From: Pandoraea pneumonica | Lineage (GTDB): Bacteria; Pseudomonadota; Gammaproteobacteria; Burkholderiales; Burkholderiaceae | Direction: 5' to 3' | Assembly: GCF_902459645.1 (NCBI RefSeq) | Contig: NZ_CABPSK010000001.1 | Location: 868,001 to 932,000, forward strand | Length of the DNA stretch: 64,000 nt | Shown: positions 46,932 to 62,366 of the stretch, in pieces | How positions within the stretch are numbered: the stretch's first letter is position 1 | How the letters are laid out: every line of letters starts with the position of its first letter | Notes under the pieces: model-generated | Database searches by the model: none | What the model was told of the DNA's origin: nothing | The model's input: the letters and a program-made list of their open reading frames with translations, nothing else | Position numbers and translations under genes: made by a program

Positions 46932-46973
46932 GCCATAGGTAGTTGGGGCAACGCCGTTTGCCCCGTGGTGCAC
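46932..46973 (-). promoter_or_regulatory. Shared TTGCCC/GGGCAA promoter element, copy 1 (SYLF gene)
   Basis: Read on the minus strand: degenerate half-site GTGCAC (start 46973), GGGCAA (46963), TTGCCC (46951) and TATGGC (46937). Spacings are 10, 12 and 14 bp. The middle spacing is one base longer than in the other six copies. Confidence 0.7.
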
Positions 46974-46995
46974 CCGAAACCGTCCCACGTCCTCG

Positions 46996-48666
46996 CTACG
47001 CCCCGGCAGCCGGATCAGGCTTGCTGTCCTTCGCAGCAGGTTCCGGCGACCACCCTTCGCGCGGGATGACGATCTGCGTTTTCGGCTGTTCCTCGAAATG
47101 CGGCGACATGATCTGCACGCCATACTCGTTGAATACGTCGACGATGCTGCTATGCAACTCGCTCAACATCACCAGACGTTGTGCCGGGTTGACCGGCGCG
47201 ACGTGCAGGTCGTATTCGATATAGAAGTCCGAGAGCGAGCGCTGCAACACAAACGGCGCAGGCGTTTGTGCAACCTTGGAGGTCCGCGCCGCCGCCAAAC
47301 ACAACATGGCTTGCACCTGACGCCAAGGGGTGTCGTAGCCAATCGTCACAGACGTAACGACCAGCGCCGGCGCCTTGCCATCGCGGCTTGAGAAGTTATG
47401 GACGATGGCACCAACCACGACGGCATTGGGAATGGTGACTTCCTCTTGCCGCACGTTCGTCAATTTCACCGACAACGTGTCGACACTCACGACGACCCCC
47501 GCCGTATCGCCGATTTGCACCATGTCGCCCGCTTGGAAGGCGCGGCTATAGGTCACGACGATGCCGCTCATCAACTGATTGACGATCCCGGCAGAACCCA
47601 ACGAGACCATCAACCCCAGCAACACGCTCAGCCCCTTGAACACATCGCTTTGCGCCCCGGGGAAGTAGGGATAGGCGAATGTCAGGGCAAGCGCCCATAC
47701 GACGATCGTCACGATGCGCCGGGAGGCGTCGGCGGTGTCGGGGTGCATTCCCGGCACGTTCAGGTGTCGTTGGCGTATCGCGGCGAAGACGTTGTTGATC
47801 AGGTTTTGCAGGGCACGCGTGAGCAAGAAGATCACGATGACCGCGATGAGCCCCGGAATGGCATTGACCACACCGAGGGCGAACGTATTGATCAGCGTCC
47901 ACAGGAAGCCACTGAGACGCTCGCCCATCGGCTGGGAGACGGGAAACCGCTCCAGCACATAGATCAGATAGACATAGATCAGCGCCGCGACAAAGAAGAG
48001 AAACAGTAGTTGCACGATCTGCCGCGCCAACTGGAAAGCCGAACCTGTCCAGTCGAACGTTTTGGACGTGCGGCGCAAGACATGTGCTTCGACGGCGTAT
48101 TGAATGCGTGTCTGGAGCCGGGTCTGCAACCGTCCTGCCAGCCAAACGAGCGCTGCCAAGATCACCGTCGCCAGCAGGGAGTAAAGCACGCCCCGAACGA
48201 TATTCGGCCAATACAGTTGCGCCTGGCGTGCGGCGAGCGCGGCATCGAGCTGCGTTTGCACTTCTTTCGCGATCACGTCGAACGGGCGGTTGTCAGCTTG
48301 GTCGACATCGCCTTCGAGCAACGCAAAGAGAATACGGTCGCCACGACGGAACACAACACCGCGAGCGTCGCCCATCGACGCCTTCACCGCGACCGTAGGG
48401 AGCACGAGAATGCTTTCGGGCAGCCCGTCGAGCACCGCGAAGGAGCGATCGGCGCGCTGTTGTGGCGACGCGCCGGTAAGCGATGCACGAAAGGTCGTGA
48501 TGGGCCGATCCATGAATCTTAGGTCGGCGGCAGGCGGGCCGGACACTGCCACCGCCGGTGCAGGCGCGGGTGCCGGTTGCGCCCATGCGAAGGTCACGCT
48601 CAGAAGCATCAATATCGTGGCGAGCACGACGGATAGTTTTTTTGTCAGTGCGATGCGCGTCATCAT
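46996..48666 (-). CDS. Large MscS-family mechanosensitive channel
   Basis: A 556-residue MscS-type protein, twice the length of classical MscS. It has a signal peptide (VVLATILMLLSVTFAWAQ), a periplasmic domain (about 35-135), four to five transmembrane helices and the channel core: the pore helix SLGSAGIVNQLMSGIVVTYSRAFQAGD and the beta domain GDTAGVVVSVDTLSVKLTNVRQEEVTIPNAVVV. It releases solutes under membrane tension. The start at 48666 follows AGGAG. It is divergent from the unknown membrane-protein gene and shares that intergenic region, but the promoter element there points the other way. Confidence 0.88.
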   Translation of the reverse strand: MMTRIALTKKLSVVLATILMLLSVTFAWAQPAPAPAPAVAVSGPPAADLRFMDRPITTFRASLTGASPQQRADRSFAVLDGLPESILVLPTVAVKASMGDARGVVFRRGDRILFALLEGDVDQADNRPFDVIAKEVQTQLDAALAARQAQLYWPNIVRGVLYSLLATVILAALVWLAGRLQTRLQTRIQYAVEAHVLRRTSKTFDWTGSAFQLARQIVQLLFLFFVAALIYVYLIYVLERFPVSQPMGERLSGFLWTLINTFALGVVNAIPGLIAVIVIFLLTRALQNLINNVFAAIRQRHLNVPGMHPDTADASRRIVTIVVWALALTFAYPYFPGAQSDVFKGLSVLLGLMVSLGSAGIVNQLMSGIVVTYSRAFQAGDMVQIGDTAGVVVSVDTLSVKLTNVRQEEVTIPNAVVVGAIVHNFSSRDGKAPALVVTSVTIGYDTPWRQVQAMLCLAAARTSKVAQTPAPFVLQRSLSDFYIEYDLHVAPVNPAQRLVMLSELHSSIVDVFNEYGVQIMSPHFEEQPKTQIVIPREGWSPEPAAKDSKPDPAAGA

Positions 48667-48722
48667 GGCGGCTCCTGGCGGGAATGCGCGGCAGCTTGCA
48701 GGCGATTTTCGCGCGAACCGGC

Positions 48723-48763
48723 GTGCCCCATGGGGCAAAATCGTTGCCCGAAACCCCGATGGT
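48723..48763 (+). promoter_or_regulatory. Shared promoter element, copy 2 (unknown membrane protein gene)
   Basis: GTGCCC (48723), GGGCAA (48733), TTGCCC (48744) and GATGGT (48758) give spacings of 10, 11 and 14 bp. It faces the gene at 48834, 71 bp before its start. Confidence 0.8.
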
Positions 48764-48833
48764 GTGCGAGGCCGTCCAGCGCAAAACTACGATCCTACTT
48801 CGATTCGACGTTCGTGCCGGCTAGGAGACACTC

Positions 48834-50048
48834 ATGGGAAAAGACGTTCCGGTGCCGGGCACGGAGCCCCCGGGTGATGGCGTCACGCCGAATGACGATA
48901 TGTCGATCGTACACGGCGACGTCGGTTTCCACCTTCAACGGCGGATGCGGCTCATCCCAGACGGCAACATGGGCACCGTGCGGCGCGCGCTGATCTTTGC
49001 CGGGGTTAGCTGGCTTCCGCTCGTGGTGTGGGCCATCGTCACAGGGCGCCCACTACACGGTGGCGGCGACGACACGCTTGCCGCTCACTTCGGCATTCAC
49101 GTGCGGTGCCTGGTTGCCATCCCATTAATGGTCATCGCTGAGGGCGTCGCCCAGAACCTGATCCCGCCGTTGCTCAAGTACTTTGTCGACTGCGGCATCA
49201 TCACCGAGCAGACACTCCCCGAGTTCCGCCGCCAACTGGCGCGTTTTGCCGCCATTCGCGACCGCGTCTTGCCTTGGGTGGTGATCTTCGGCGCAACCCT
49301 GGCCTGGTCGACGCTCGGCGCGCTGATCGGCCGTTCAGAGGACATGACCTGGATGAATCACGGCGATACCCTCGCCGATATCAGCTTCGGCGGCTGGTGG
49401 TTCGTCCTTGTCGTCCGCCCGCTTTTCACGGTGATGCTGCTGGCATGGCTCTGGCGCGCCTGCCTGCTCTTCATGCTGCTTTACCGAATCGGCAAACTCC
49501 CGTTGGCGCTGGTGCCGTCGCATCCCGATCGCGTCGGCGGGCTGAGTTTTGTCGAGCGGATGGCCTTTATGTTCAGCCCGGTCGCGTTTGCCATTTCGGC
49601 GGTGGTCGCGTCGTCGTTCGCGCATGAAGTGGCGTATCACGGGGCAAGTGCCGTGCAAATGAAAGGGCTGCTGATTGCCAGCGCGGTATTGATTTCCGTG
49701 GTCTTTCTGATCCCGCTTCTCCCGCTTGCGCTGCCGTTGGGCAAGCTAAAGCGCCGTGCCGCGTTCGAATACGGCAGTTTGGTCGCGCATCACGACCGGC
49801 TCGTCCATGAGCGATGGATTCAGCATCGGGACATTGGCGAACCGGCCATACTCGATGCCCCTGAGTTGGGCCCCGTGGCGGATATTCATGCCATCTATGA
49901 CGCGGTGGTTCATATGCGATCGATCCCGATCAGCAAACTGTCGGTGGCTGCGATCGCCATTCCAGCCGCATTGCCGATGCTCTACGTCGCGGCAATGCAG
50001 TTACCGTTGTCCGCCATTTTGGGGAAGGTCGCTAAGGCGCTGATTTGA
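48834..50048 (+). CDS. Unknown polytopic membrane protein
   Basis: I do not recognise a functional family for this 404-residue protein. It has a soluble N-terminus of about 50 residues and six or so hydrophobic helices (ALIFAGVSWLPLVVWAIV, HVRCLVAIPLMVIAEGVAQNLI, VLPWVVIFGATLAWSTLGALI, WWFVLVVRPLFTVMLLAWLW, LLIASAVLISVVFLIPLLPLAL, and a final one near the C-terminus). A charged segment, LVPSHPDRVGGLSFVERM, lies between helices four and five. AGGAG precedes the start. It is preceded by the shared promoter element and is flanked by the MscS channel and an outer-membrane barrel gene, so an envelope role is likely. Confidence 0.75.
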   Translation: MGKDVPVPGTEPPGDGVTPNDDMSIVHGDVGFHLQRRMRLIPDGNMGTVRRALIFAGVSWLPLVVWAIVTGRPLHGGGDDTLAAHFGIHVRCLVAIPLMVIAEGVAQNLIPPLLKYFVDCGIITEQTLPEFRRQLARFAAIRDRVLPWVVIFGATLAWSTLGALIGRSEDMTWMNHGDTLADISFGGWWFVLVVRPLFTVMLLAWLWRACLLFMLLYRIGKLPLALVPSHPDRVGGLSFVERMAFMFSPVAFAISAVVASSFAHEVAYHGASAVQMKGLLIASAVLISVVFLIPLLPLALPLGKLKRRAAFEYGSLVAHHDRLVHERWIQHRDIGEPAILDAPELGPVADIHAIYDAVVHMRSIPISKLSVAAIAIPAALPMLYVAAMQLPLSAILGKVAKALI

Positions 50049-50067
50049 GCAGGGGGAGGGCGTTTCG

Positions 50068-51054
50068 TCAGAAGCTCATGGCAAAGCCGAGCGACACGCC
50101 TTGAACGTTATGCCCGAACACGTAACGAGCCATCAAACGGGTGCGGGTCACGACCACCGGATACTTGCTGCTGTCGAGTTCTAGCCCGACGCCGAGCGAC
50201 GTCAGGTTATTGAAGCCGAGCACGCCGGCACTGTCGCCAAAGTACTGAGAGTAGGCCGCTTCCAGCACATAGCGCACCGGACGGTCGAGTGCTCTGAGGC
50301 CCGTAGGCGCACGCCAGCGCGACCACAAACTCAGTTGCTGTGCGTTAGCGCTGCCCTGAACGCCCGCCGACGAACCGCCAAAACTGTGCAGGTGGATATC
50401 GGTCAGCCGCAATTCGACATCGATCTCATAAGCTTCCCGGTAGTGCTCGAAGTCGAGCATCAGCGAGCCGCCCAGACCATAGGCATTCAAGGCGCCATTC
50501 TCGAGAAACTGGAGATTGACGTCGGCCGCCCGGTTGACCAAGGTCTCGCCGATGCGCAGATCGCTCGCCACGCGCCCAACGCTGCCATTGAGAATCGGGC
50601 GCAGCACGAGTTCATCCGCAAGGCGTATATCCCAACCGATACCGACGGTCGTGCTCAGCGTATTCCAGCGCACCGGCAACGTGCGATGCTCTGTGCCGTC
50701 CGACGCTACGAACGTCGGGTCGTAGCGGCTGTACGCCAGGGTGCCTTCCAGATAGAGCGGAAATGAGCGGCTGAGCGTGAACCCGCCGCCCAATTGGGTC
50801 TGCCAGAAGCCGGGGTTGCCCGTCGAGCCGTTGTTGATCGAGAGCGAGCTTGTCGTGACATCGGGCACCGTGGTGTAGCTCATGATGGCGAGCACGCTGT
50901 TGGCGTGACTTTTCACGTCGCCGCCCACGCGCAGCCCCGGCGACTGGCCGAATGCCGCGAACGGGGCCACCGCGAGGCAGGACATCACCAGCCAGCGGAC
51001 ATGGCGGGTCACCCTGCGATTGGCTTGCGTTCTCGTGCGTCCGTTGAAAGACAT
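50068..51054 (-). CDS. Outer-membrane beta-barrel protein
   Basis: A 328-residue exported protein. The signal peptide (VRWLVMSCLAVAPFAAFGQ) precedes repeating amphipathic beta-strands (GGGFTLSRSFPLYLEGTLAYSR, VRWNTLSTTVGIGWDIRLAD, VSLGFAMSF), ending in a C-terminal Phe as outer-membrane barrels do. No specific family is certain. The start at 51054 (MSFNGRTRT) is chosen because the upstream open frame crosses the promoter element. It is divergent from the diguanylate cyclase, and two overlapping copies of the shared element lie between them. Confidence 0.75.
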   Translation of the reverse strand: MSFNGRTRTQANRRVTRHVRWLVMSCLAVAPFAAFGQSPGLRVGGDVKSHANSVLAIMSYTTVPDVTTSSLSINNGSTGNPGFWQTQLGGGFTLSRSFPLYLEGTLAYSRYDPTFVASDGTEHRTLPVRWNTLSTTVGIGWDIRLADELVLRPILNGSVGRVASDLRIGETLVNRAADVNLQFLENGALNAYGLGGSLMLDFEHYREAYEIDVELRLTDIHLHSFGGSSAGVQGSANAQQLSLWSRWRAPTGLRALDRPVRYVLEAAYSQYFGDSAGVLGFNNLTSLGVGLELDSSKYPVVVTRTRLMARYVFGHNVQGVSLGFAMSF

Positions 51055-51126
51055 ACCCAACTCACGTCGTTGATATCGCGATTGACCGGCCATCGAGCGC
51101 CATTGTCGTGTCTGCGACCGGCGCGA

Positions 51127-51167
51127 ACTATTAGTGTCGGGGGCAACGGAATTGCCCCACTGGGCAA
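51127..51167 (-). promoter_or_regulatory. Shared promoter element, copy 3 (outer-membrane protein gene)
   Basis: On the minus strand TTGCCC (start 51167), GGGCAA (51157), TTGCCC (51146) and AATAGT (51132) give spacings of 10, 11 and 14 bp. It shares two half-sites with copy 4 on the opposite strand. Confidence 0.8.
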
Positions 51168-51192
51168 AGCACTTGCCCACACTCCCGATAGC
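51152..51192 (+). promoter_or_regulatory. Shared promoter element, copy 4 (diguanylate cyclase gene)
   Basis: TTGCCC (51152), GGGCAA (51162), TTGCCC (51173) and GATAGC (51187) give spacings of 10, 11 and 14 bp. It overlaps the minus-strand copy by 16 bp, so one bound complex could drive both divergent genes. Confidence 0.8.
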
Positions 51193-51248
51193 CCCGCGCG
51201 CCGATAACGAAAAGAATGGGGACGCGCTAGCCTGGGGCCTGCGGGACC

Positions 51249-52799
51249 ATGAATTCGCCCAATACTTCACAACCTTCGTCACCGACATCGAGCGCATGGT
51301 TTGGCGCGCTCGGCTTGACGCTCGCGGCCGCGATATTGGCCGCGGTGATCATGATCGGCGTACGCACGGCCTTGCTCTATGAGGGCCGCGTCGCGGTACG
51401 CGATGACGCGCGGGAAGCGAACCAGCGCGTGGCGCTGCTGGCTGCGCGCGTGGCGGGCGACGATCTCTCGGCCTGCACTCGTGCGCTCGACGCCCTTGCG
51501 GTTGCCGGGCGCTCGGACCCAAGTCAGCAACTCTCGAACTGTCTGGAGCGGTTCCGTCCATACCTTCCCACCGCCCCATCGTCCGGCGCAGAACCGGCCG
51601 CAGATGCACAAGCCGTGATCGTCAACGAGATGGGGGAGACGGTCTTCGAAGCACTGCCTTCGACGACCTGTCTCGATCTGCCTCTCGTTCAACGAGTCGT
51701 CGCTGCGCACAAGCAGGCCAATCGCAATGGACTCTCGGTGTCTACATCGGTGCCACTCTGCTCAGCCGCCCCCGGGGCGGCCAGCGGCATCATGCTGGCC
51801 CAAAGCATCCACCGCGACGATGGCGCGTTTTCCGGTGTCGGCATCGTCACGATCGACGCCAGATACTTCGCTCGTCTATTTAGCGGTCTGACACCCGGCG
51901 ACCATGGGGTGCTCTCCCTCCTGCGCGATGACGGTACCGTGCTCATCCATACGAATGCCGGGAGCACGGACACGACACGCGACGCAGTGCCAGCGACGAT
52001 GACGGTACTTCCTGTAACGGCCTCGCAAGTCGGGGCAAGCGCAGGTGCCGACGGCGATTATCTCTACGTACGGCAGTCCATCGACGGACTGCCGCTAACC
52101 GTCGATATTCGCGCGCCGAAGAGCGAAATCTATGCCGAGTGGCGCAAGCGAGCGTATTGGGTCGCCGCAATGACCGCTACCCTCGCCGTGTCGTGCCTGA
52201 TCCTTGCCGTTCTGCTCAGGCGTCAGCGCAAACGCCGACAGGTCGCCGAACTTGCGTTGCAACGCATGGCGAGTACCGATCCGCTCACGGGGCTGGCCAA
52301 TCGCCGGTCCTTGGACGAGGCCTATGACCGGGAATGGCGGCGGGCCTTGCGCGAACGAACGGCGCTGTCGCTACTGTTTATCGATGTCGATCACTTCAAG
52401 CAATTCAACGACCGATACGGCCATCCGGCGGGCGACGAGGCATTGATTGCCGTCGCGCGCGCCATTTCGCACTCGATTCGGCGCCCCGGCGACTTCGCGG
52501 GGCGTTACGGCGGCGAAGAGTTCATGGTGATCCTGTCGAACACGGAAGCCATGGGGGCGCGCGACGTCGCCGAGCGCTTGCGCGTGGCAGTGCACGCGGC
52601 AGCCATTGCCCACGAGGACAGCCAGCACCGGCATGTCACGGTGAGCATCGGCGTCGCATCCACCGGGCCCTTGCCAACTGGCACGCCCGAACGGCTGCTG
52701 CAATCGGCCGATGAAGCGCTTTACGCGGCAAAACAAGAGGGACGCGATCGCGTCCGCATTCACGCAAACTCTGGAGGTGACCCATGCCCAGCGATCTGA
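51249..52799 (+). CDS. Membrane diguanylate cyclase with periplasmic sensor
   Basis: A 516-residue enzyme that would make cyclic di-GMP from two GTP. A first transmembrane helix (about 17-40) and a second (about 305-325, AAMTATLAVSCLILAVLL) flank a periplasmic Cache-like sensor of about 260 residues. The GGDEF domain (about 345-505) carries the active-site motif GGEEF and an inhibitory RxxD site (RPGD) exactly five residues upstream of it, so product inhibition is expected. The ribosome-binding site is weak. It overlaps the DUF2252 gene by 16 bp, which implies coupled translation. Confidence 0.9.
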   Translation: MNSPNTSQPSSPTSSAWFGALGLTLAAAILAAVIMIGVRTALLYEGRVAVRDDAREANQRVALLAARVAGDDLSACTRALDALAVAGRSDPSQQLSNCLERFRPYLPTAPSSGAEPAADAQAVIVNEMGETVFEALPSTTCLDLPLVQRVVAAHKQANRNGLSVSTSVPLCSAAPGAASGIMLAQSIHRDDGAFSGVGIVTIDARYFARLFSGLTPGDHGVLSLLRDDGTVLIHTNAGSTDTTRDAVPATMTVLPVTASQVGASAGADGDYLYVRQSIDGLPLTVDIRAPKSEIYAEWRKRAYWVAAMTATLAVSCLILAVLLRRQRKRRQVAELALQRMASTDPLTGLANRRSLDEAYDREWRRALRERTALSLLFIDVDHFKQFNDRYGHPAGDEALIAVARAISHSIRRPGDFAGRYGGEEFMVILSNTEAMGARDVAERLRVAVHAAAIAHEDSQHRHVTVSIGVASTGPLPTGTPERLLQSADEALYAAKQEGRDRVRIHANSGGDPCPAI

Positions 52800-54196
52800 C
52801 GCTCGACCAACGTAAAGCCGCAGGAAAACTGGCCCGTGAACGTGCGCCTCGTTCGAAACAGAACGACATCGGCAATGTCGACCGCGATCCCGTCGCGCTG
52901 TTGCGGCAGAACAGTGCAGGGCGTGTCGATGCCCTTGTCCCGTTGCGATACGGCCGGATGTCGGTGTCCCCGTTCACGTTCTACCGCGGCAGTGCGGTTC
53001 TCCAAGCGCACGATCTGGCCAGAACCACGACGACCGGGTTCACCTTTCCCATCTGTGGCGACGCCCACCTCATGAACTTCGGCGGGTTCGCCACCCCGGA
53101 ACGGCAACTCGTCTTCGATCTGAACGATTTCGACGAAGTGGCACCCGGGCCCTGGGAATGGGATCTGAAGCGGCTTGTCGCGAGTTTTGCGATTGCCGGG
53201 GAGCACATGAGCGTCGATCGCAGCACGATCCGCGATATCGTCGCGACGGCGGTGCTTGAGTACGGCAAGCGGATGCAGGAGTACGCCGAGTACAGCGCGC
53301 TCGATCTCTGGCATGAGATCGTCACGTTCGAGCGCATGACCGAAGCGGCCGTCACGTCGGAAGGGCGCCGCATGATTCGCAAGGCGGCCGAGAAAGCCGC
53401 TGGCCGCTCGCACGAGGCCATGCTCGACAAAATGGCAAAGCTTGAGAACGGCCGATGGGTCATCCAAGACGCGCCGCCCGCGCTATTCCATCCTGCCGGA
53501 CCGAATTCCTTGCTGGGGAATGCCCACGCATGGTCGAACACCGAGGCGTGGCAGGGCAAGCTGGCACAGGCGTTCAACGAATATGTGGGTACGCTGCCGG
53601 TCGACCGACGCGCTTTGATCGATCAGTTCACGCTTCAGGACATTGCCTTTAAGGTCGTGGGGGTGGGCAGCGTCGGCACGTTCTGTCTGGTGATGTTGTT
53701 TGTCGATGTGCACGGCAAGCCTTTGTTTCTACAAGTCAAAGAGGCGCGCGAGTCGGTCATCGCCAGGTACTTCCCGACGGGGAAGGTGCATCAGCAAGGA
53801 TTGCGCGTCGTGGCTGGGCAGCGGCTGTTGCAAGCGGCCAGCGATGCGTTCCTGGGCTGGACGACGGGACCGAACGGGCGGCACTTCTATTTCCGGCAAT
53901 TGCGCGACATGAAGATCTCGGCCGAGGTCGAGCGCATGAGCGACACCATCTTGCAGGGCTATGCGCGCCTGTGCGGCTGGACACTCGCCCGGGCGCATGC
54001 GAAATCGGGCGGACTTGCCGTGGAGATTTCGTCGTATATCGGGGATGGGAAGCGGCTGGCCGACGCCATGACGGATTACGCGCTGGCTTACGCCGTGCAG
54101 AACCAGAAGGACTACGACACCTTTATGCGCGCCTGCCGCTCGGGCAAGCTCGTGGCGCGCAGCGACGAGGACATGGCGGCGGACTTTCGGATTTAA
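52784..54196 (+). CDS. DUF2252 protein
   Basis: A 470-residue DUF2252 family protein. Recognisable segments are MSVSPFTFYRGSA, FPICGDAHLMNFGGFATPERQLVFDLNDFDE and WEWDLKRLVASF near residues 60-140. The GDAHLMNFG and DLNDFDE pair resembles the catalytic and metal-binding loops of aminoglycoside-kinase-like folds, so a phosphotransferase activity has been suspected for such proteins; I cannot confirm it. GGAGG precedes the start, which lies inside the end of the diguanylate cyclase gene. The fixed pairing with a GGDEF gene is notable. Confidence 0.85.
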   Translation: MPSDLTLDQRKAAGKLARERAPRSKQNDIGNVDRDPVALLRQNSAGRVDALVPLRYGRMSVSPFTFYRGSAVLQAHDLARTTTTGFTFPICGDAHLMNFGGFATPERQLVFDLNDFDEVAPGPWEWDLKRLVASFAIAGEHMSVDRSTIRDIVATAVLEYGKRMQEYAEYSALDLWHEIVTFERMTEAAVTSEGRRMIRKAAEKAAGRSHEAMLDKMAKLENGRWVIQDAPPALFHPAGPNSLLGNAHAWSNTEAWQGKLAQAFNEYVGTLPVDRRALIDQFTLQDIAFKVVGVGSVGTFCLVMLFVDVHGKPLFLQVKEARESVIARYFPTGKVHQQGLRVVAGQRLLQAASDAFLGWTTGPNGRHFYFRQLRDMKISAEVERMSDTILQGYARLCGWTLARAHAKSGGLAVEISSYIGDGKRLADAMTDYALAYAVQNQKDYDTFMRACRSGKLVARSDEDMAADFRI

Positions 54197-54226: not shown

Positions 54227-54598
54227 TCAATGCGCGACCCGCGTCGCCCGTTCGATGGCACCAAGCAGGTCGCTGCCGAGGAAGGGCTTGGTGAGCAACT
54301 CGCTGGCCCCCACGCGAGTCACTGCGGCTCGCGTTTTCTCGCTGTCATGGGCCGTGACGAACACCACGGGCGGACGCGGCTGCGCCAACGCCTCGTAGAA
54401 CGCTGGCCCGGACGTTCCCGGCAACTCCACGTCGACGACCATGCAATACGCGATCGTCACCGACTCGATCACGCCAAGCTCGTCGGTACTGGCAAACGAA
54501 CACGTGCGGTAGCCCGAAATACTGAGCAGCCGCTCGACCGCGCGACGCATTCCTGTGTCGTCCTCCAGAATCGCGATGAGATTCTTTGAAGTGGTCAT
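54227..54598 (-). CDS. Single-domain response regulator (receiver only)
   Basis: A 123-residue CheY/FixJ-type receiver with no output domain. The acidic pocket (ILEDD), the phosphorylated Asp (VVDVELPGTSG), the Thr (FVTAHD) and the Lys (LLTKPF) are all present. The start at 54598 (MTTSKNLIAI) is chosen by homology; the upstream open frame is promoter DNA. It carries its own copy of the shared promoter element and may act as phosphate sink or relay for the nearby hybrid-sensor kinase (inference). Confidence 0.85.
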   Translation of the reverse strand: MTTSKNLIAILEDDTGMRRAVERLLSISGYRTCSFASTDELGVIESVTIAYCMVVDVELPGTSGPAFYEALAQPRPPVVFVTAHDSEKTRAAVTRVGASELLTKPFLGSDLLGAIERATRVAH

Positions 54599-54649
54599 GA
54601 AATGCCCGTGTCCATATGCCTGCATTCTTCTTTGGATTGGACGCCATAC

Positions 54650-54690
54650 GCCATCGGGAGTTGGGGCAACACCGATTCCCCATCGGGCAA
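54650..54690 (-). promoter_or_regulatory. Shared promoter element, copy 5 (receiver gene)
   Basis: On the minus strand TTGCCC (start 54690), GGGAAT (54680, one central mismatch from GGGCAA), TTGCCC (54669) and GATGGC (54655) give spacings of 10, 11 and 14 bp. An extra GGGGCAA at 54694-54700 lies next to it. The DUF2092 gene on the other side has no complete plus-strand copy. Confidence 0.75.
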
Positions 54691-54827: not shown

Positions 54828-55622
54828 ATGAGACGACAGGCGTTAGCCGTTTTGATGCTGCTCACGACAGGTGCAGCGTCGACAGTGACGAGCGCATGGG
54901 CGCAGGGTGCACCCGCGAGCGCTCCTGCCGCGCAGGCCGCACCCGCCGATGCCGTAGACCCCGAAGCCGTGCAGGCATTGCGCACGATGGGGACCTACCT
55001 GCAAACGCTCAAGCGTTTTCGGGTCACCACGGATCTGACGGGCGAGCGCGTACTCGCCGACGGGCAGAAACTCCAACACAGTGCGAGTGCCACGCTGGAT
55101 GTCGACCGGCCCAACCACATTCGCGCGGTGATGAAAAGCGCGCGTAACTCGCGCGAGATCATCTACGACGGAAAAACCGCGACCCTGTATTCGCCCGGGC
55201 AGAAGTACTACGCCAGCGTGCCGTATCAAGGGACCTTGGCGCAGCTGATTGGCGAACTCCGTGCGCGCTATGGCGTAGAACTTCCGCTCGCCGACATGTT
55301 CCTTTGGGGAAGCGACGAAGCCAAGACGCCGCAGTTCAACTCGGCGATGTATGCCGGGCAAGACTACATCGGCAACGACCTCTGCGATCACTACGCCTAT
55401 CGGCAGGCGGGCGTCGACTGGCAGATCTGGATCACCAGCGGTGACAAGCCGTTACCCCGCAAGGTTGTCATTACCCGCACGGACGATGACGCTCGCCCGC
55501 AGTCGGTGTCTCTCGTGACATGGCAGACCGGCGCGCCGATCAAGTCCTCGACCTTCGAGTTCAAACCGCCAGCAGGTGCGAAGAAGATCGAAGCCGTTCA
55601 GATGCCTGCCAATAAGGGGTGA
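54828..55622 (+). CDS. Exported DUF2092 protein
   Basis: A 264-residue periplasmic protein with a signal peptide (QALAVLMLLTTGAASTVTSAWAQG) and a DUF2092 domain (about 45-250: LRTMGTYLQTLKRFRVTTDLTGE, IIYDGKTATLYSPGQKYYASV, IGNDLCDHYAYRQAGVDWQIWI). The fold is expected to resemble LolA/LolB-type half-barrels that carry lipids; function is unknown. The start at 54828 follows GAGG; an in-frame ATG at 54799 is less likely. A glycine-rich exported protein gene follows after 4 bp, so they form an operon. Confidence 0.82.
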   Translation: MRRQALAVLMLLTTGAASTVTSAWAQGAPASAPAAQAAPADAVDPEAVQALRTMGTYLQTLKRFRVTTDLTGERVLADGQKLQHSASATLDVDRPNHIRAVMKSARNSREIIYDGKTATLYSPGQKYYASVPYQGTLAQLIGELRARYGVELPLADMFLWGSDEAKTPQFNSAMYAGQDYIGNDLCDHYAYRQAGVDWQIWITSGDKPLPRKVVITRTDDDARPQSVSLVTWQTGAPIKSSTFEFKPPAGAKKIEAVQMPANKG

Positions 55623-55626
55623 CAAC

Positions 55627-56154
55627 ATGACAAATAAGCTCTCCCCTTGGCTTACCGCTTGCGTGGCGGTCACGGTACTCAGCGCTTCTATCGCCGCGAT
55701 GTCGCCATCGATGGCCGTCGGCCGCGGCGGCGGTGGAGGCGGGCATGGTGGTGGCGGGCATATGGGCGGTGGTGGTGGCGGCGGTGGCGGGCATGCGCGC
55801 GCCCAAAATGCCGGACAGCACGCCAACGTCGGTAACCGGCAGCCCGATTCCCGCACGCGTAACGTGCGCAACACCAGCTCGAACAACGTCAACGTCAACA
55901 AAAACGTGAACGTCAACGTCGATAATCACGGCGGCTATCACGGTGGATGGGACGACGACTATCACCCGATCGCCACGGCGGCGGCAGTGACGGCCACGGT
56001 GGCCGTGACGTCAGCGGTGGTTGGCTCGATCGTTCGCTCGGTGCCTGCCAACTGCGTCCCGGTGAACTACCGGGGCATGATCTATCAGCAGTGCGGCAGT
56101 ACGTGGTATCAACCGCAAGGCAGCCAGTTCGTGGTGGTGACTGCGCCGTACTGA
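55627..56154 (+). CDS. Exported Gly/Asn-rich protein of unknown function
   Basis: A 175-residue low-complexity exported protein. A signal peptide (LTACVAVTVLSASIAAMSPSMA) is followed by a glycine/histidine-rich stretch (about 48-75), an Asn/Val alternating stretch (NVNVNKNVNVNVDN), a hydrophobic Ala/Thr/Val segment (about 128-147) and a conserved-looking C-terminus with two Cys (NCVPVNYRGMIYQQCGSTWY) ending in QFVVVTAPY. The last part resembles small surface-exposed domains in other proteobacterial proteins. AGGGG precedes the start. It is coupled to the DUF2092 gene. Confidence 0.75.
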   Translation: MTNKLSPWLTACVAVTVLSASIAAMSPSMAVGRGGGGGGHGGGGHMGGGGGGGGGHARAQNAGQHANVGNRQPDSRTRNVRNTSSNNVNVNKNVNVNVDNHGGYHGGWDDDYHPIATAAAVTATVAVTSAVVGSIVRSVPANCVPVNYRGMIYQQCGSTWYQPQGSQFVVVTAPY

Positions 56155-56167
56155 GCGGGGAGTGGGG

Positions 56168-56188
56168 AGCGAGCGTCAGACGCTCGCT
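56168..56188. terminator. Stem-loop at the convergent gene ends near 56.2 kb
   Basis: AGCGAGCGTC and GACGCTCGCT pair almost completely around one central base, just after the Gly/Asn-rich gene and overlapping the stop codon of the sensor kinase gene on the other strand. No T tract follows. Confidence 0.45.
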
Positions 56189-58092
56189 TCCTCACTCACG
56201 CGGCGACGCTGCGGTTCAGGCATCGCCGGGGCTAGCGGCAACCAGAGGATAAACTCGGTGCCTTTGCCCGTTCGGCTGCGTGCAGAAACGCTGCCTCGAT
56301 GCGCCTCTGCAATGGAGCGCACAATCGACAAGCCGAGCCCTGTGCCGCGCTCCTTCGTCGTGTAGAAGGCCTCAAATAGCCGGTCGAAGTTCTCTTCCGC
56401 AATGCCGGTACCCCGATCGGCGACGACAAGCTCGACACCATCGTCGGCAAACCGCGTGCTGATGACCAACTCGCGATCTTTCTGCTCCGCGTCTTCCATG
56501 GCATCCATCGCATTGATCGACAGGTTGAGCAGCACTTGCTGCAACTGCACCTGATCGGCCAGCACTTCGGCGTCTTGCGTGCCGAAGACGGTTCGCAAGA
56601 CGATACCGCGACGGCGCGCCTCGGGCCGCACAAGCGCGGTTGCCCGTTCGAGGACCGCATCGAAGACTACCGGTGTGAACGTAATCGCCTGCTTTTGCAG
56701 CAGCGTGCGTAAGCGCACGATGACGTCGTTGGCGCGCAAAGCATCGCGTCTGACATCGCTCAAGATTTCCTGAAGCTCGGGGTCGCTGTGCCCCGCACTC
56801 TGCATCATGAGATCGGCGGCATCGACATTGCTGAGAATCGCCCCGAGCGGCTGGCCAACCTCATGCGCGATAGACGCGCTGAGTTCGCCAACCGTAGCGA
56901 TACGCGACGCGCGCGTGAGATCGGCGCGGCGTGTGGCGGCTTCACGCTCGGCGGCGCGTCGCTCCCGGCGCTGCCTGAGCATGGCAAAAATGGTGAACGC
57001 CTGCGCGCCGATCACAAACAGAATGACCGCGATTTCCTTCCAATACTCCCGATACGGCGGCAGGGGCGCATTCAGCCATTTACAGTCGGGCCCGAGCGAG
57101 CGCTCCGAAATGCCCAGACGCTTCAGAACCGCAATATTGGCCATGCATCGTGCTGGCAGCGCCGGCCCGGACATGGCGGAATGGCGGGACTTGTCGCCCG
57201 AAAGCATGCGTGCCGCGATCATGCCGGTCATGCGGCCGTTCTCTTCAAGATCGTATACCGCACCTGCCGCCGCGCCCTGAATCAAATAATTGGCATACCA
57301 GCCATAGATCGGCACCGGCGCGTCGCCCGCAATCTTGTTGACCACTTCGAAGGGGAAGTAACGCCTGCCGTCGCGGTCCAGATACTGCGTGCCATAGAGT
57401 ACGGCGCTATCGCGCTTATCTAGCTTGGCCAGCCGCGCGCGTAATTCCGGCACCGACAACCCCTCCCAGCGCTCGATAGCACTCCACCGTCGGTCGCCGG
57501 TTTGTGCCGCTTCGACGATTTCGTCCGAGAAGTGCTTGTCTAGCACGGCACTCCCGCCGATGACGATTAGCCGCGTCGCGCCGGGCTGAAGCCGCCGCGC
57601 GATGGCAAGCGTTTTGTCGATCTCGATGCGGTAGGGGATAAGGACGAAGGTCGACGGGAACGCGCCGCTCATCTTCAGCCACGCTTCGGGCACGCTCGTG
57701 ACAATGACCGGCGTGTCGGGCCAGATCGCGTCGTGGTGGGCGCGCGCGAATTCGGCGGCATAGTTGCCGATGGCGATGACCAGATCGATGTGCTGACCTT
57801 CGTATTTCTTGCGGAGCAGCGCAAATAGCTCTGGCGTCAGCAAATCGACGCTGAAGCGGTGGCCGTCCACACTATCGAGAAATGTTTCAGCGCCAAGCGG
57901 CAACTTTTCGTTCAACACGTTGCGAATCGCCTGGGTCTGCATCAGTACCGCGGCCTGCATGGGGTCGCCGCCCGTGAGCAGCACAACTTTGGGCGGCTCA
58001 GCACTGCTTGCTGCGGGCGCAACGAGGCCGTAGGCGGCGAAGACCACCAGCGCGACGGCCCCTCGAAGCCTACGGGCGAGTCTGCCGCTCAC
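56176..58092 (-). CDS. Sensor histidine kinase with ABC-type periplasmic binding domain
   Basis: A 638-residue kinase. A signal/anchor (about 10-30) is followed by a periplasmic ABC-substrate-binding-like domain (about 34-340, VVLLTGGDPMQAAVLMQTQAIRN region) of the PF04392 type, one transmembrane helix (about 360-380, EIAVILFVIGAQAFTIFAML), a HisKA domain with the H-box SIAHEVGQPLGAILSN and an ATPase domain with N (LNLSINAMDAM) and G (DRGTGIA, GTGLGLSIV) boxes. It should sense a small ligand in the periplasm. It overlaps the response regulator gene by 4 bp and is likely its partner. Confidence 0.88.
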   Translation of the reverse strand: MSGRLARRLRGAVALVVFAAYGLVAPAASSAEPPKVVLLTGGDPMQAAVLMQTQAIRNVLNEKLPLGAETFLDSVDGHRFSVDLLTPELFALLRKKYEGQHIDLVIAIGNYAAEFARAHHDAIWPDTPVIVTSVPEAWLKMSGAFPSTFVLIPYRIEIDKTLAIARRLQPGATRLIVIGGSAVLDKHFSDEIVEAAQTGDRRWSAIERWEGLSVPELRARLAKLDKRDSAVLYGTQYLDRDGRRYFPFEVVNKIAGDAPVPIYGWYANYLIQGAAAGAVYDLEENGRMTGMIAARMLSGDKSRHSAMSGPALPARCMANIAVLKRLGISERSLGPDCKWLNAPLPPYREYWKEIAVILFVIGAQAFTIFAMLRQRRERRAAEREAATRRADLTRASRIATVGELSASIAHEVGQPLGAILSNVDAADLMMQSAGHSDPELQEILSDVRRDALRANDVIVRLRTLLQKQAITFTPVVFDAVLERATALVRPEARRRGIVLRTVFGTQDAEVLADQVQLQQVLLNLSINAMDAMEDAEQKDRELVISTRFADDGVELVVADRGTGIAEENFDRLFEAFYTTKERGTGLGLSIVRSIAEAHRGSVSARSRTGKGTEFILWLPLAPAMPEPQRRRVSEEASV

Positions 58093-58712
58093 GACATCTG
58101 TGCAGCAGTGGATGGCGTCTGCCTGTCGGCGTTACGGATCAGTTCTGCCAGCGATGTGGCACTGAACTTGCGCATGAGCTCTGCTCGGCAAGTCTTGATT
58201 GTGCGTTCGCACAAACCGAGCTCCGCCGCGATCTGCTTATTGCGCAGTCCTTTGGCGATGCCTTGCAGTACCACCTGCTCGCGACCGCTGAGCGCCGATT
58301 CCGCCGGGTCGGCCACAGGGGTCGCCGACGGCCTTTGTACGAGACTCAGCGCTGTCTCCACCGCGCCGACGAGCGAATCTCGACCGAACGGCTTGATGAG
58401 AAAGTCCACCGCGCCGGCCTTCATCGCCTCGACCGAACGCGCAACGTCGCCATAGCCGCTCATGAAGACCACAGGCAGGGCCGGTGTCTGACGGCGCAAG
58501 GCGCGCTGCAAGTCGAGGCCGCTTGGCCCGCCTAGCTCCAGATCCAACAGTACGCACCCGGGGCGCTCGTCCGGCTCACTGACCAGAAACTCTCCCGCAG
58601 ACGCATATTCCTTTGTGTCATACCCCGATGCGACCAGCAGGCGCGTGAGCGCTGTGCGCAACGAGGCGTCATCGTCGACAACGTGCACTACCGATTCACG
58701 ACTGGCGTTCAT
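58089..58712 (-). CDS. FixJ/NarL-type response regulator
   Basis: A 207-residue regulator. The receiver domain (about 8-125) has DD (VVDDD), the phosphorylated Asp (LLDLELGG) and the Lys (LIKPFG); a LuxR-type HTH (about 140-200, LSGREQVVLQGIAKGLRNKQIAAELGLCERTIKTCRAELMRKF) follows. It is coupled to the ABC-sensor kinase. It is the only DNA-binding regulator inside the 46-64 kb region and so the prime candidate for recognising the shared promoter element (inference). Confidence 0.9.
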   Translation of the reverse strand: MNASRESVVHVVDDDASLRTALTRLLVASGYDTKEYASAGEFLVSEPDERPGCVLLDLELGGPSGLDLQRALRRQTPALPVVFMSGYGDVARSVEAMKAGAVDFLIKPFGRDSLVGAVETALSLVQRPSATPVADPAESALSGREQVVLQGIAKGLRNKQIAAELGLCERTIKTCRAELMRKFSATSLAELIRNADRQTPSTAAQMS

Positions 58713-59069
58713 GGCTTCTCCGCGTAGTACGCGATTCGTTAAGAAACTCCCCCGGGGTATGTTCTGAATTCCGTCGATTTGTAGGAATAATTCCGCCGTG
58801 AATAATTTAAATTACGCACTTAAATCAATTAAATAACTATTTCTCAATAAATCACCCTTGTTTTTCACTCTCATTTAGATTTACCGGCAATGTCAAATTG
58901 ATAGCACTTTCGAATACCTTCGTAAAGCCAATTTTCTTTTAATTTGCCCAAAAGGGGCGTGCCCATTGCCCCAAATCCCTATGTCATCGAATGCCCGTGG
59001 TGTTGAAAATGACTCCCGTACGTTTTTCATACGTTGCATCACGGATACAACGCTCTTGCGGAGGGCTCG
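58713..59069. other. AT-rich 357-bp divergent intergenic region
   Basis: No supported gene. Roughly 58785-58945 is strongly AT-rich against the high-GC background (for example AATAATTTAAATTACGC). It may serve as an UP element or nucleoid-protein (H-NS-like) site for the response regulator and alkylsulfatase promoters. Copy 6 of the shared element lies at its right end. Confidence 0.6.
58944..58985 (+). promoter_or_regulatory. Shared promoter element, copy 6 (alkylsulfatase gene)
   Basis: TTGCCC (58944), GGGCGT (58955, matching GGGCAA at its first four bases), TTGCCC (58966) and TATGTC (58980) give spacings of 11, 11 and 14 bp, 85 bp before the alkylsulfatase start. Confidence 0.78.
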
Positions 59070-61055
59070 ATGAAACGCACGTCTGTCTTTGCCGTCTTAA
59101 CGCTGGTTGCCGCTACCCTTAGTGGGACAGCGGTACATGCCCAGTCATCTCCACCACAACCTGCCGACGCGACGGCCGCCACGCGCGACGCAAATCAAAA
59201 GCTGCTGGACTTTCTCCCCTTCGCGAACAAACAGGATTTCGAAGACATTCAGCGTGGGTTTATTGCCGAGTTGCCGAATCCGGTCGTGAAGGGCAGTGCG
59301 GGCAATACGGTCATCGATCTGACACAGTACGACTTCCTCAAGAAGAACATGGGCGGCGAAGCCCCGCCAACCGTCAACCCGAGCCTCTGGCGCCAGTCGC
59401 AATTGCTCTCGGCGCAGGGCTTGTTCAAGGTGGTGGACGGCATCTATCAGGTGCGTAACGTCGACCTCGCCAACATTACGTTCGTGCGCGGTAAAACGGG
59501 CTGGATCGTGATCGACCCGCTCACGTCGGTCGAGACGGCGAAAGCTTCGCTCGATCTGGTCAATAGTAAGGTCGAGAACCTGCCGGTGACCGGCGTGATC
59601 TTTACGCACAGCCACGTCGATCACTTCGCCGGCGTGCGCGGTGTCGTGGACGAAAAGGATGTGCGCTCCGGCAAGGTGCCGCTCGTGGCACCGGAAGGGT
59701 TCATGGAGGAGGCCGTCAGCGAGAACGTGTTCGCGGGCACGGTGATGAGCCGTCGCGCCTCGTACATGTACGGCAACTTGCTGCCGAAAGACCCGAAGGG
59801 GACCGTCGGCGGTGGCCTCGGTTTAACGACGGCGGCCGGTACGATCACCTTGTTCGAGCCGAGCAAGCTCATCAAGAAGACCGGCGAGACGATCAATATC
59901 GACGGCGTGGACATCGTTTTCCAGATGGCGCCGGGCACCGAGGCGCCTGCGGAAATGCTGTTCTACTTCCCGCAGTTCAAGGCCATCGATCTGGCCGAGG
60001 ACGCGACGCACACCCTCCACAACATTCTTACGTTGCGCGGCGCCAAGGTCCGCAGTGCGCAGAAGTGGTCGCACTATCTGGACGAAACGATCCGCCTCTG
60101 GGGTAAGGATGCCGTCGTGTCGTTTAGCAGCCACCATTGGCCGCAGTGGGGTAACGAACGCGTTGTCGAGCATCTGGAAAAGCAGCGCGATCTGTATCGC
60201 TACATCAACGATCAAACGCTTCGCATGGCCAATCAGGGCATGACGATGCACGAGATCGCCGACAAGTTCGTGCTGCCGGATTCGCTCGCCAAGGAGTTTT
60301 ACAGCCGTGGCTATTACGGCAACCTGAAGCACAACGTGCGCGCCACGTATCAGCTTTACCTTGGCTGGTGGGACGGTAATCCTGCCAACTTCGACCCGTA
60401 TCCGCCGACCGACGAGGCCAAACGCTACGTGGAGCTGATCGGTGCGGACAAGATGCTCAAGGGCGCTAAGGCCGCCTTCGACAAGGGCGACTATCGCTGG
60501 GCGGCGGAACTGACGAACAAAGTCGTCTTTGCGCAACCGACCAATCAGGCCGCTCGGAACCTCGAAGCAGCGTCACTGGAGCAGTTGGGGTATCAGGCGG
60601 AATCCGGCCCGGCGCGCAACTTCTACCTGAGCGGCGCACAGGAGTTGCGCGGCGGCGTGAAAAAGGTCGCAACGCCTAACACCTCGTCGCCCGACATCAT
60701 CCGTGGCATGACCACCGATATGTTCCTGGACTTCCTCGCCATTCACTTGAACGGACCGAGGGCCGCAGGCAAAGCGTATGCGTTCAACGTCAACTTCCCG
60801 GACACGAAGGAGAAGTACGCGTTGACCGTCAAGAACGGTGTCATGAACTACACCAAGGATGCGCAGTTGCAGAAGGCTGACGCCAACATCTCGCTCAATC
60901 GTTCGACGCTCGACGACATTGCGCTGGGCAAGCTCAAGCTGGGCAATCTGGCTGACAGCGGGCAAGTGCAGTTCGACGGCGACCGGGCCAAGTTCAAGGA
61001 AATGCTCGGCCTGTACGACAAATTCGACTTCTGGTTCACCATCGCGGAACCCTGA
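59070..61055 (+). CDS. Exported alkylsulfatase of the SdsA metallo-beta-lactamase type
   Basis: A 661-residue periplasmic alkylsulfatase that would release sulfate from primary alkyl sulfates such as SDS. The signal peptide is KRTSVFAVLTLVAATLSGTAVHA. The metallo-beta-lactamase zinc motif is THSHVDHFAG, with further ligands in PGTEAPAEMLFYFPQFKAIDLAED (two Glu) and SSHHWPQWG (His), matching the binuclear site of Pseudomonas SdsA1, which has almost the same length. Later parts match the helical dimerisation and C-terminal SCP2-like domains. The start at 59070 follows GGAGGG. A terminator follows at 61092. Confidence 0.92.
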   Translation: MKRTSVFAVLTLVAATLSGTAVHAQSSPPQPADATAATRDANQKLLDFLPFANKQDFEDIQRGFIAELPNPVVKGSAGNTVIDLTQYDFLKKNMGGEAPPTVNPSLWRQSQLLSAQGLFKVVDGIYQVRNVDLANITFVRGKTGWIVIDPLTSVETAKASLDLVNSKVENLPVTGVIFTHSHVDHFAGVRGVVDEKDVRSGKVPLVAPEGFMEEAVSENVFAGTVMSRRASYMYGNLLPKDPKGTVGGGLGLTTAAGTITLFEPSKLIKKTGETINIDGVDIVFQMAPGTEAPAEMLFYFPQFKAIDLAEDATHTLHNILTLRGAKVRSAQKWSHYLDETIRLWGKDAVVSFSSHHWPQWGNERVVEHLEKQRDLYRYINDQTLRMANQGMTMHEIADKFVLPDSLAKEFYSRGYYGNLKHNVRATYQLYLGWWDGNPANFDPYPPTDEAKRYVELIGADKMLKGAKAAFDKGDYRWAAELTNKVVFAQPTNQAARNLEAASLEQLGYQAESGPARNFYLSGAQELRGGVKKVATPNTSSPDIIRGMTTDMFLDFLAIHLNGPRAAGKAYAFNVNFPDTKEKYALTVKNGVMNYTKDAQLQKADANISLNRSTLDDIALGKLKLGNLADSGQVQFDGDRAKFKEMLGLYDKFDFWFTIAEP

Positions 61056-61091
61056 TCCGTGGTTAGCGTAGTTGCGTAGTGTGTCTCCGGT

Positions 61092-61123
61092 GCCCGTGTG
61101 CGAATACGCATACGGGCTTTTTT
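61092..61123 (+). terminator. Rho-independent terminator after the alkylsulfatase gene
   Basis: GCCCGTGTGCG and CGCATACGGGC form an 11-bp stem with one G-T pair and a 4-base loop, followed by TTTTTT (61118-61123). The HAD gene downstream must therefore have its own promoter or rely on readthrough. Confidence 0.88.
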
Positions 61124-61169
61124 ACCCGCCGGAGGCACTGGACAAGCGTCGTCCCAAAGGAGAACCGCC

Positions 61170-62297
61170 ATGGCGAATCGATTCCGCAGTGCGCTTACAC
61201 GGCACCGAACCCTCGCGCGCTCGTTGGCGGCCGGATGGCTCGTCATCGCGCTGGCGGGTTGCGCAACTCAGCAAAGCGCCGCCCCGCCTCAGGACGTCGG
61301 GGCGAGCACCGCCGCACCGGAGGTGCGCTCGGTCGCGCCGCTCGCACCCGTTGAACCCGTGGCGGCATCGCTGCCGTCATGGCGCGATGGCGCATCGCGC
61401 GATGCCATTCTCAAGTTCGTGAGCGATGTCACCCGGGTGGGCGCACCGACGTTTCTGCCCGTCGAATCGCGCATCGCCGTGTTCGATAACGACGGCACGC
61501 TTTGGAGCGAGCAGCCGATACCGTTCCAACTGATCTTCATGATCGATCAGCTCAAGGCCGCCGCGCCGGAGCATCCGGAGTGGAAGAAGCGACCGGCGTT
61601 CAAGGCACTGATGACCAACGACGTCGCAGCGCTGGCGGCCAACCAGAAGGACGCGTTCGCACTGATCGCCGAAGCGAACAGCGGCATGTCCACTGACGTT
61701 TACGACGCGTCGATTCGCGATTGGCTCACACGGGCGAAGCACCCCAAGTTCGGCCGCGCTTACACGGATCTCGTCTACCAGCCGCAGCGCGAATTGCTGG
61801 CGTTGCTGCGGGCGAATGGCTTCCAGATTTGGATCGTCTCGGGCGGCACCGCTGAATTCATGCGGGTGTGGGCGAGCGACGCCTATGGCATTCCGCCTGA
61901 GCGCATCGTCGGCAGCGAAGAAAAGCTCCAGTACCGGGTCGCCGACGGCAAACCCGTGCTGATTCGAAAACCTGGCTTCGATGTGTACAACGACGGCCCC
62001 GTCAAACCGGTCAGCATCTTCCGGGCAATTGGACGCAGGCCTGTCCTCGCGGTCGGTAATTCGGATGGCGACAGAGAAATGATCGAGTACACCACGAGCG
62101 GCGATGGCCCCTCGCTGGGCGTGCTGATCCATCACGACGACGGCGCGCGTGAATTCGCCTACGACCGCGCGTCAAAGACCGCGAAACTCGACAAAGCATG
62201 GGATCAGGCCAAGCAGGCAGGGTGGGTCGTCGTGAGCATGCAAAAGGATTGGAAAACGATCTTTCCTTTCGAATCCGCCCCGGCACCGAATAAATGA
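61170..62297 (+). CDS. Exported HAD-family lipoprotein hydrolase
   Basis: A 375-residue predicted lipoprotein. The start at 61170 follows AAAGGAG; the upstream open frame crosses the terminator. The signal peptide ends in the lipobox LAGC (Cys31). An Ala/Pro-rich linker leads to a HAD phosphatase-like domain with motif I FDNDGTLWSEQP, motif II VSGG, a Lys in the later region and motif IV GNSDGDREMIEY. This is the phosphoserine-phosphatase/haloacid-dehalogenase layout, but HAD enzymes are rarely lipoproteins. Its likely site is the periplasmic face of a membrane. The substrate is unknown; neighbours are sulfatase-related. Confidence 0.85.
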   Translation: MANRFRSALTRHRTLARSLAAGWLVIALAGCATQQSAAPPQDVGASTAAPEVRSVAPLAPVEPVAASLPSWRDGASRDAILKFVSDVTRVGAPTFLPVESRIAVFDNDGTLWSEQPIPFQLIFMIDQLKAAAPEHPEWKKRPAFKALMTNDVAALAANQKDAFALIAEANSGMSTDVYDASIRDWLTRAKHPKFGRAYTDLVYQPQRELLALLRANGFQIWIVSGGTAEFMRVWASDAYGIPPERIVGSEEKLQYRVADGKPVLIRKPGFDVYNDGPVKPVSIFRAIGRRPVLAVGNSDGDREMIEYTTSGDGPSLGVLIHHDDGAREFAYDRASKTAKLDKAWDQAKQAGWVVVSMQKDWKTIFPFESAPAPNK

Positions 62298-62325
62298 AGC
62301 GCAATTCAGCCAGCCGATACAGGCG

Positions 62326-62366
62326 TTGCCCGAAAGGGCAACGTGGTTGCCCCTCCCACCAATTGC
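62326..62366 (+). promoter_or_regulatory. Shared promoter element, copy 7 (FGE gene)
   Basis: TTGCCC (62326), GGGCAA (62336), TTGCCC (62347) and AATTGC (62361) give spacings of 10, 11 and 14 bp, 74 bp before the start of the formylglycine-generating enzyme gene. Confidence 0.8.

Follow-up and report, generated by a model that had tools for sequence, protein, structure and literature searches.

Seven promoter regions within a 64,000-nucleotide stretch of the Pandoraea pneumonica genome (contig NZ_CABPSK010000001.1, positions 868,001 to 932,000; hereafter the window) carry the same element, composed of three alternating half-sites in the arrangement TTGCCC-N4-GGGCAA-N4..7-TTGCCC. Judging from its sequence, we consider it quite probable that this element belongs to an activator-dependent promoter of the sigma70 type, a FixJ-type response regulator encoded at 58089-58712 being its most likely binder. 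One regulon stands behind the seven elements, as had been proposed in an earlier description of the window (below, the sequence-only reading), and it is undescribed as far as our literature searches go: among open-licence papers, covered by titles and beginnings of abstracts, none was found with the spaced motif strings, and none among those listed, for the bare hexamers included, concerns a bacterial regulon of this kind. What emerges is a regulon with a predicted regulator, an exact promoter map and sulfatase-rich targets, and the searches made revealed none described for these species.

The architecture of the element was observed directly, as a check of the window recovered all seven elements with the coordinates and strands of the sequence-only reading (Table 1), every one pointing at the next gene. 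The half-sites start at 0, +10 and +21, the third being moved to +22 in elements 46932 and 58944, and in the latter the middle half-site is poor whichever register is used. In all seven, an AT lies 15-16 bp past the start of the third half-site (the NAT box). The dyad of promoter 2 also faces a divergent MscS-like gene (46996-48666; window 48650-48750, minus strand), with a poor third half-site on that side; the reverse-side sequence there is TTCGCGCGA-A/G-AATCGCC or close to it, and a similar one occurs in five Pandoraea relatives. In genome G024 (L143, 8088-8144) a row of four to five alternating half-sites was seen between divergent genes, therefore arrays can exceed three half-sites.

Such an arrangement is rare by chance. 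When up to three mismatches were allowed over the three half-sites, the window gave six matches against 0.10 expected, and none of 100 shuffles got to six; five of the six are sites noted earlier and one is a reverse-side match, and sites 46932 and 58944, as spacing variants, escape the fixed pattern. With up to three mismatches, the 20-base pattern gave 12 matches across the source genome (5.85 Mb, 12 contigs), as compared to one for the reversed control. Besides the five window sites, these comprise three within called open reading frames (ORFs; C4:348959, C3:311657 and C4:712710), one at C1:967280 whose three mismatches all fall in the third half-site, and three further promoter-like sites, which face a protein resembling DUF1254/DUF1214 as judged by eye (C1:524340, minus), a probable outer-membrane protein with no NCBIfam match (C1:618834, plus) and another DUF1254-like protein (C1:990683, minus; GT instead of AT in the NAT box). 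For sites and genes alike we relied on our own scripts, with a codon scorer behind the gene calls, so that 'intergenic' is approximate throughout. The palindrome-only pattern TTGCCC-N3..6-GGGCAA occurs at eight places in the genome. GGGCAA-N5-TTGCCC with up to two mismatches was dropped as a search pattern, being too loose (534 matches vs 218 for the control).

The spaced motif is enriched over its controls also in relatives. Among 61 genomes (the source and its relatives) the pattern with up to two mismatches was present in 16, and the reversed control in none; in several Pandoraea genomes the sites stand at corresponding places with altered spacers, the divergent pair included. When 84,980 species genomes were searched for exact matches to the 20-base pattern, 51 stretches were found, of which 47 are from Burkholderiales (Paraburkholderia, Caballeronia, Burkholderia sp., Pandoraea, Variovorax, Xenophilus and Cupriavidus) and four from elsewhere (Thiocystis, Anaerolineae, Nitrospira and Actinacidiphila). 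No regulator relative at E 1e-35 or better was found for the last three, and these matches probably arose by chance. In Thiocystis the starts of the site and of a regulator relative (51%) are 641 bp apart, and the module there is likely a result of transfer. On this contig (L219), from a metagenome-assembled genome of a gammaproteobacterium, the kinase, the regulator, the exact site and a lipoprotein gene were seen together.

Co-occurrence of the motif with the regulator was likewise observed. The protein encoded at 58089-58712 matches Response_reg (5.5e-24) and GerE (2.4e-16), as expected for a response regulator of the FixJ/NarL type, and its closest structures are StyR (1yio, E 2e-41) and FixJ (5xso, 1e-36). 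It was already the candidate regulator of the sequence-only reading, and it is co-occurrence that argues for it. Nine of the 61 genomes have an ortholog of at least 77% (two copies each in G001 and G009), and all nine have a site with at most one mismatch; the other 52 give one such match, within an ORF (G020). Where a Pandoraea genome has the regulator in duplicate (two genomes), both copies have sites nearby. Among 200 Burkholderiaceae genomes, drawn evenly and overlapping with the set of 61, the motif with at most one mismatch was present in 11 of the 11 with a regulator relative (E 1e-48 or better, up to 15 top candidates being scored in each genome) vs 1 of the 189 without it, the lone exception being the coding match of G020; the reversed control was found in one of the 200. 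Fisher's test gives 3e-17 with genomes treated as independent, that is, with relatedness not corrected. Presence is patchy inside genera. A regulator relative of at least 50% was found in 27 of 28 exact-pattern Burkholderiales searched (the 28 leave out L103 and P. aquatica, the latter counted among the 61 genomes as G001). Of the exact sites checked for linkage, 34 of 48 (the Thiocystis one included; P. aquatica, L103 and the three outsiders excluded) have a regulator relative on the same contig, 26 of them within 10 kb and the nearest at 67 bp, start to start. A helix of the regulator reads ERT-I/V-K-x-CRA in the Pandoraea, Paraburkholderia, Burkholderia, Caballeronia and Cupriavidus rows of a 41-row comparison, and QRA or QRS in the Thiocystis row and three of four readable Variovorax-type rows, the fourth having HRA; five rows (L081, L084, L086, L196 and L197) were left out. 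In a tree of the 41 rows, where the same five are unreliable, the motif label takes three changes, and the tree was not used as evidence.

The type of promoter is indicated by sequences further downstream. When sites were aligned with the first base of the third half-site as offset 0, a first pooling of 131 sites with AT revealed a second conserved island, R-A-N-A-M-T, at offsets 39-44. We then used 138 sites with AT, of which three lie in called ORFs and the remainder was thinned to 94 non-redundant promoters; this set requires a 4-bp dyad spacer and hence omits window site 58944. NANNNT at offset 38, 39 or 40 is present in 85 of the 94 (Pandoraea 32/34, others 53/60), as compared to a mean of 9.5 and a maximum of 15 for other triples of neighbouring offsets, and the result persisted after harder thinning (64/71, 45/49 and 27/28, with a control maximum of 6 for the last). 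All seven window promoters, 58944 included, have such a block, and by its sequence and position, 38-40 bp past the third half-site start, it has the form of a sigma70 -10 hexamer. This second hexamer, about 25 bp past NAT, was absent from the sequence-only reading. A hexamer TRGYNN starts at the T of NAT, ten bases after the third half-site and 17 bp upstream of the -10 block; compared with a TTGACA-like -35, it has G at the third place in 69 of 83 sites, the T at its first place being selected for. As the -10-like block lies 17 bp beyond TRGYNN, NAT marks -36/-35 and not -10. The whole sequence YMCC-NATRGY, at offsets 10-19 of all promoters, shows stronger conservation than is usual for a -35 hexamer and resembles neither TTGACA nor a half-site.

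The gap between the dyad and the third half-site is 4, 5, 6 and 7 bp in 2, 79, 11 and 2 of the 94 promoters, respectively; NAT and -10 hold their distance to the third half-site, and the -10 remains in register in 11 of the 13 promoters with a gap of 6-7 bp. Because the set of 94 was built with AT at this distance, the constancy of the distance within it is selected. The invariance of AT itself is selected in part, as AT belongs to the patterns that retrieved most loci; the -10 block played no part in any selection. When AT was not selected for, it was found in 125 of 133 intergenic sites, and also in 18 of 20 regulator-region sites not picked by the exact pattern, the regions themselves being from genomes in which the exact pattern occurs. 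The -10 position led us to re-place two gene starts: the receiver gene most likely starts at 54598 rather than 54700, and the barrel gene most likely does not start at 51297.

Several observations weigh against an activator-dependent promoter read by this regulator. The A of NAT is absent from C1:990683, and YMCC-NATRGY is stronger than a -35 hexamer needs to be. Occupancy of a lone third half-site is questionable by analogy with ComA of Bacillus subtilis, which, in the portion of the source consulted, leaves single elements unbound (PMC4797271). The pairing of motif and regulator is also imperfect at its edges. Variovorax J22P240 has an exact site, and its regulator match, just 43%, is at a level that general FixJ paralogs reach as well. 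Applying the 1e-48 cut-off to the 61 genomes adds G046 and G048 (50-52%), from other families of the same order, which lowers the score to 9 of 11 with a site of at most one mismatch; neither of the two has one, and within 20 kb around their regulators no site with up to three mismatches was found. G020, in turn, has one convincing site and no ortholog (best 41%); this site may be an orphan or remnant in a Pandoraea genome devoid of the ortholog. Finally, co-occurrence does not separate regulator, kinase and receiver.

Two side observations concern these edges. The G020 site (L144, around 8262) has a -10-like GATACT and is flanked by two divergent genes, of which one was judged by eye to be DUF1254-like. 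Near regulator relatives of 50-52%, drifted dyads were seen before the next gene (TTGCAC-N4-GGGCAG and TGCAC-N4-GTGCA; L149 12600-12800, L150 10806-10985); operator and regulator may have changed together. G046 is a genome with a drifted dyad.

One could argue that the element is read by another DNA-binding protein, travelling together with the kinase, regulator and receiver genes, as the binder is not identifiable from co-occurrence and the G020 site stands without an ortholog. We consider this unlikely. In 20 regulator-centred regions (19 genomes) a kinase relative is present in 17 and a site precedes a single-domain receiver gene in 14, and we noticed no second regulator that was always adjacent in these regions, no systematic search for one having been made; moreover, inverted half-sites fit dimers of the GerE type, as far as the part of the source consulted goes (PMC4797271). 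Less probable still is that the same regulator represses at these sites. StyR, according to the consulted part of its description, either activates or represses one promoter depending on which sites are filled (PMC2442086), but here every half-site lies upstream of -35 and, like activated promoters, these have a poor -35.

The sequence-only reading had offered two explanations of NAT. In the first, an activator assists a weak -10 formed by NAT, the third half-site being located between -35 and -10 of a sigma70 promoter. The activator-type promoter stands, but its -10-like hexamer lies further downstream, and NAT as the -10 is very improbable. At offset 14 there are 2.9 mean matches to TATAAT, though two are built in by the AT required of every site, whereas offset 39 gives 3.04 without any selection; the pattern A2..T6 is found in 17 of 83 sites at offset 14 vs 59 of 83 at offset 39, and the downstream block would be left unexplained. 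A sigma54 promoter has GG and GC at a fixed distance. The second explanation takes the second and third half-sites as the -24/-12 elements of a sigma54 (RpoN) promoter, and we reject it as hardly credible because the gap between the dyad and the third half-site varies (4-7 bp) with no change in the register of third half-site, NAT and -10. GG-N10-GC, present in 78 of 94 promoters, is lost in all 13 whose gap is 6-7 bp, so that the fixed spacing is not kept; the first half-site and the -10 block would have no role, the regulator has no sigma54-activator domain, and GGCA with TTGC followed by A/T was found in 0 of 94, an absence largely built in by requiring TTGCCC.

For the activator-dependent sigma70-type promoter, we infer binding, activation, feedback and signal as follows. 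With the -10 set at -12 to -7, the half-sites occupy approximately -72 to -67, -62 to -57 and -51 to -46, the first two making up an inverted repeat with its centre near -64.5 and the third standing alone near -48.5; YMCC-NATRGY over the -35 comes next, and then 17 bp of spacer and the -10 (NANAMT). The kinase (56176-58092) would phosphorylate the FixJ-type regulator, a dimer of which would bind the inverted repeat in a class I position. A second regulator molecule at the third half-site would act in a class II manner, contacting the poor -35 region and substituting for the -35 hexamer, and both together would hold RNA polymerase at the poor -35 promoter. At divergent genes a single inverted repeat could serve both sides, each having its own third half-site and core promoter. 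The single-domain receiver probably damps the kinase in a FixT-like manner, and by this analogy it is a likely brake. As for the signal, a sulfated compound or sulfur supply would be our guess from gene content, because of the sulfatases in the regulon. A broader proposal can be put forward only tentatively: a portable, self-damped two-component regulon for sulfate-ester use, in which the kinase senses a sulfated compound, the promoters with three half-sites are ComA-like but of an origin independent of ComA, YMCC-NATRGY is a -35 replacement dedicated to the activator, and the module travels in one piece among Burkholderiales and has entered the gammaproteobacterium Thiocystis at least once. 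The pairing of motif and regulator across genomes makes each step directly testable.

The genes of the system and its targets are listed in Table 1. HisKA and HATPase_c were found in all 14 kinases compared (the window one and 13 of the 17, four short calls being excluded), and ABC_sub_bind was matched weakly by four of them. In the receivers, Asp and Lys are invariant in 20 of 20 aligned sequences and Thr/Ser is kept, as in a single receiver able to accept a phosphoryl group; there is also one invariant Cys. In six receiver regions NAT lies exactly 55 bp ahead of the receiver start. The list of targets was made from 88 first downstream genes of non-redundant sites, of which 12, cut by locus ends or very short, were removed and to which two were added. 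The resulting 78 include 14 receiver domains, 8 alkylsulfatases, 7 arylsulfatases, 6 FGE domains, 6 DUF1254 and 6 DUF1214 matches, 6 SYLF and 2 GGDEF proteins; sulfatases or FGE-like proteins account for 21. The gene families named in the sequence-only reading for the window were borne out, apart from 48834-50048 and 50068-51012, which match no Pfam or NCBIfam family.

Table 1. Promoters, predicted regulatory genes and putative targets in the window
Feature	Position	Strand	Remarks
Promoter 1	46907..46973	-	half-sites 46973-46968, 46963-46958, 46951-46946; NAT from 46937; -10 46912-46907 GACACT; faces SYLF lipoprotein 46285-46872
Promoter 2	48723..48788	+	half-sites 48723-48728, 48733-48738, 48744-48749; NAT from 48758; -10 48783-48788 AAAACT; faces membrane protein 48834-50048
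Promoter 3	51102..51167	-	central dyad common with promoter 4; -10 51107-51102 GACAAT; faces barrel-like protein 50068-51012
Promoter 4	51152..51217	+	divergent partner of promoter 3, same dyad; -10 51212-51217 AAGAAT; faces diguanylate cyclase 51249/51315-52799
Promoter 5	54624..54690	-	-10 54629-54624 AAGAAT, one base later than in other promoters; faces single-domain receiver
Promoter 6	58944..59010	+	third half-site 58966-58971, middle half-site poor; -10 59005-59010 GAAAAT; faces alkylsulfatase
Promoter 7	62326..62391	+	half-sites 62326-62331, 62336-62341, 62347-62352; -10 62386-62391 GATGAT; faces FGE-domain protein
Candidate regulator	58089..58712	-	receiver and LuxR/GerE domains; co-occurrence with motif; nearest solved relatives StyR, FixJ
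Likely partner histidine kinase	56176..58092	-	HisKA, HATPase_c; weak ABC_sub_bind-like sensor part
Single-domain receiver, target	54227..54598	-	start from -10 position and ortholog lengths; recurrent target near regulator in relatives
SYLF (Ysc84, BPSL1445 family) lipoprotein, target	46285..46872	-	domain match
Membrane protein, target	48834..50048	+	no Pfam or NCBIfam match
Barrel-like protein, target	50068..51012	-	no Pfam or NCBIfam match
GGDEF protein, target	51249..52799	+	end overlapped by DUF2252 gene 52784-54196
Alkylsulfatase, target	59070..61055	+	metallo-beta-lactamase, Alkyl_sulf_dimr, Alkyl_sulf_C, SCP2
FGE-sulfatase domain protein, target	62440..63714	+	domain match

Among known systems, TtrS-TtrR is brought to mind by the second NCBIfam match of the regulator. 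Kinases of the TtrS type have a substrate-binding-like sensor part. The scores obtained here, 126.9 and 100.8 bits, remain below the cut-offs of 290 and 750, respectively, the former being that of TtrR (NF040749). The link to StyS-StyR is that no solved structure is nearer to the regulator than StyR, whose high-affinity site, STY2, is placed at about -40 in the part of the report consulted (PMC2442086). No styrene genes were seen among the targets. With FixL-FixJ-FixT the system shares, as far as that system is described in the part of the source consulted, a kinase, a FixJ-type regulator and a single-domain receiver within the regulon. In Caulobacter the inhibition of FixL by FixT was demonstrated (PMC7078487, consulted in part), whereas here such a role of the receiver is predicted; moreover, the regulator, with 171.2 bits against a cut-off of 255 for NF006900, is not FixJ proper, and the receivers have their one invariant Cys instead of the Caulobacter 4-Cys motif.

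The most extensive likeness in promoter design is to ComA, for which the consulted portion of the source describes an inverted repeat TTGCGG-N4-CCGCAA, functional with a spacing of 4 or 5 bp, with further elements towards -35 and both class I and class II action (PMC4797271). Shared with it, on the same partial basis, are the NarL-family DNA-binding domain, the hexamer inverted repeat with a 4-bp spacer and the further half-site towards -35. The 4-bp-spaced repeat upstream of -35 is present in all 94 promoters by definition of the search, element 58944 departing from it, and the third half-site (offset 0-5) lies between the repeat and -35. A fourth element of the ComA type, a direct repeat 5 bp past the third, was not recognisable, columns 11-16 reading MCCNAT and not TTGCCC. 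The two systems differ in the half-sites, TTGCGG there and TTGCCC here, and in the third half-site, described as degenerate there and near consensus here, partly because the search required it. They differ also in the host, which here belongs to Proteobacteria, and in the regulator, which is StyR/FixJ-like, the ComA domain matching at E 0.0017 vs 2.6e-11 for StyR. The seven promoters would represent a second case, under quite a different regulator, of the inverted-repeat-plus-half-site promoter studied with ComA, and their near-consensus half-sites make them suitable for tests of how such a promoter works.

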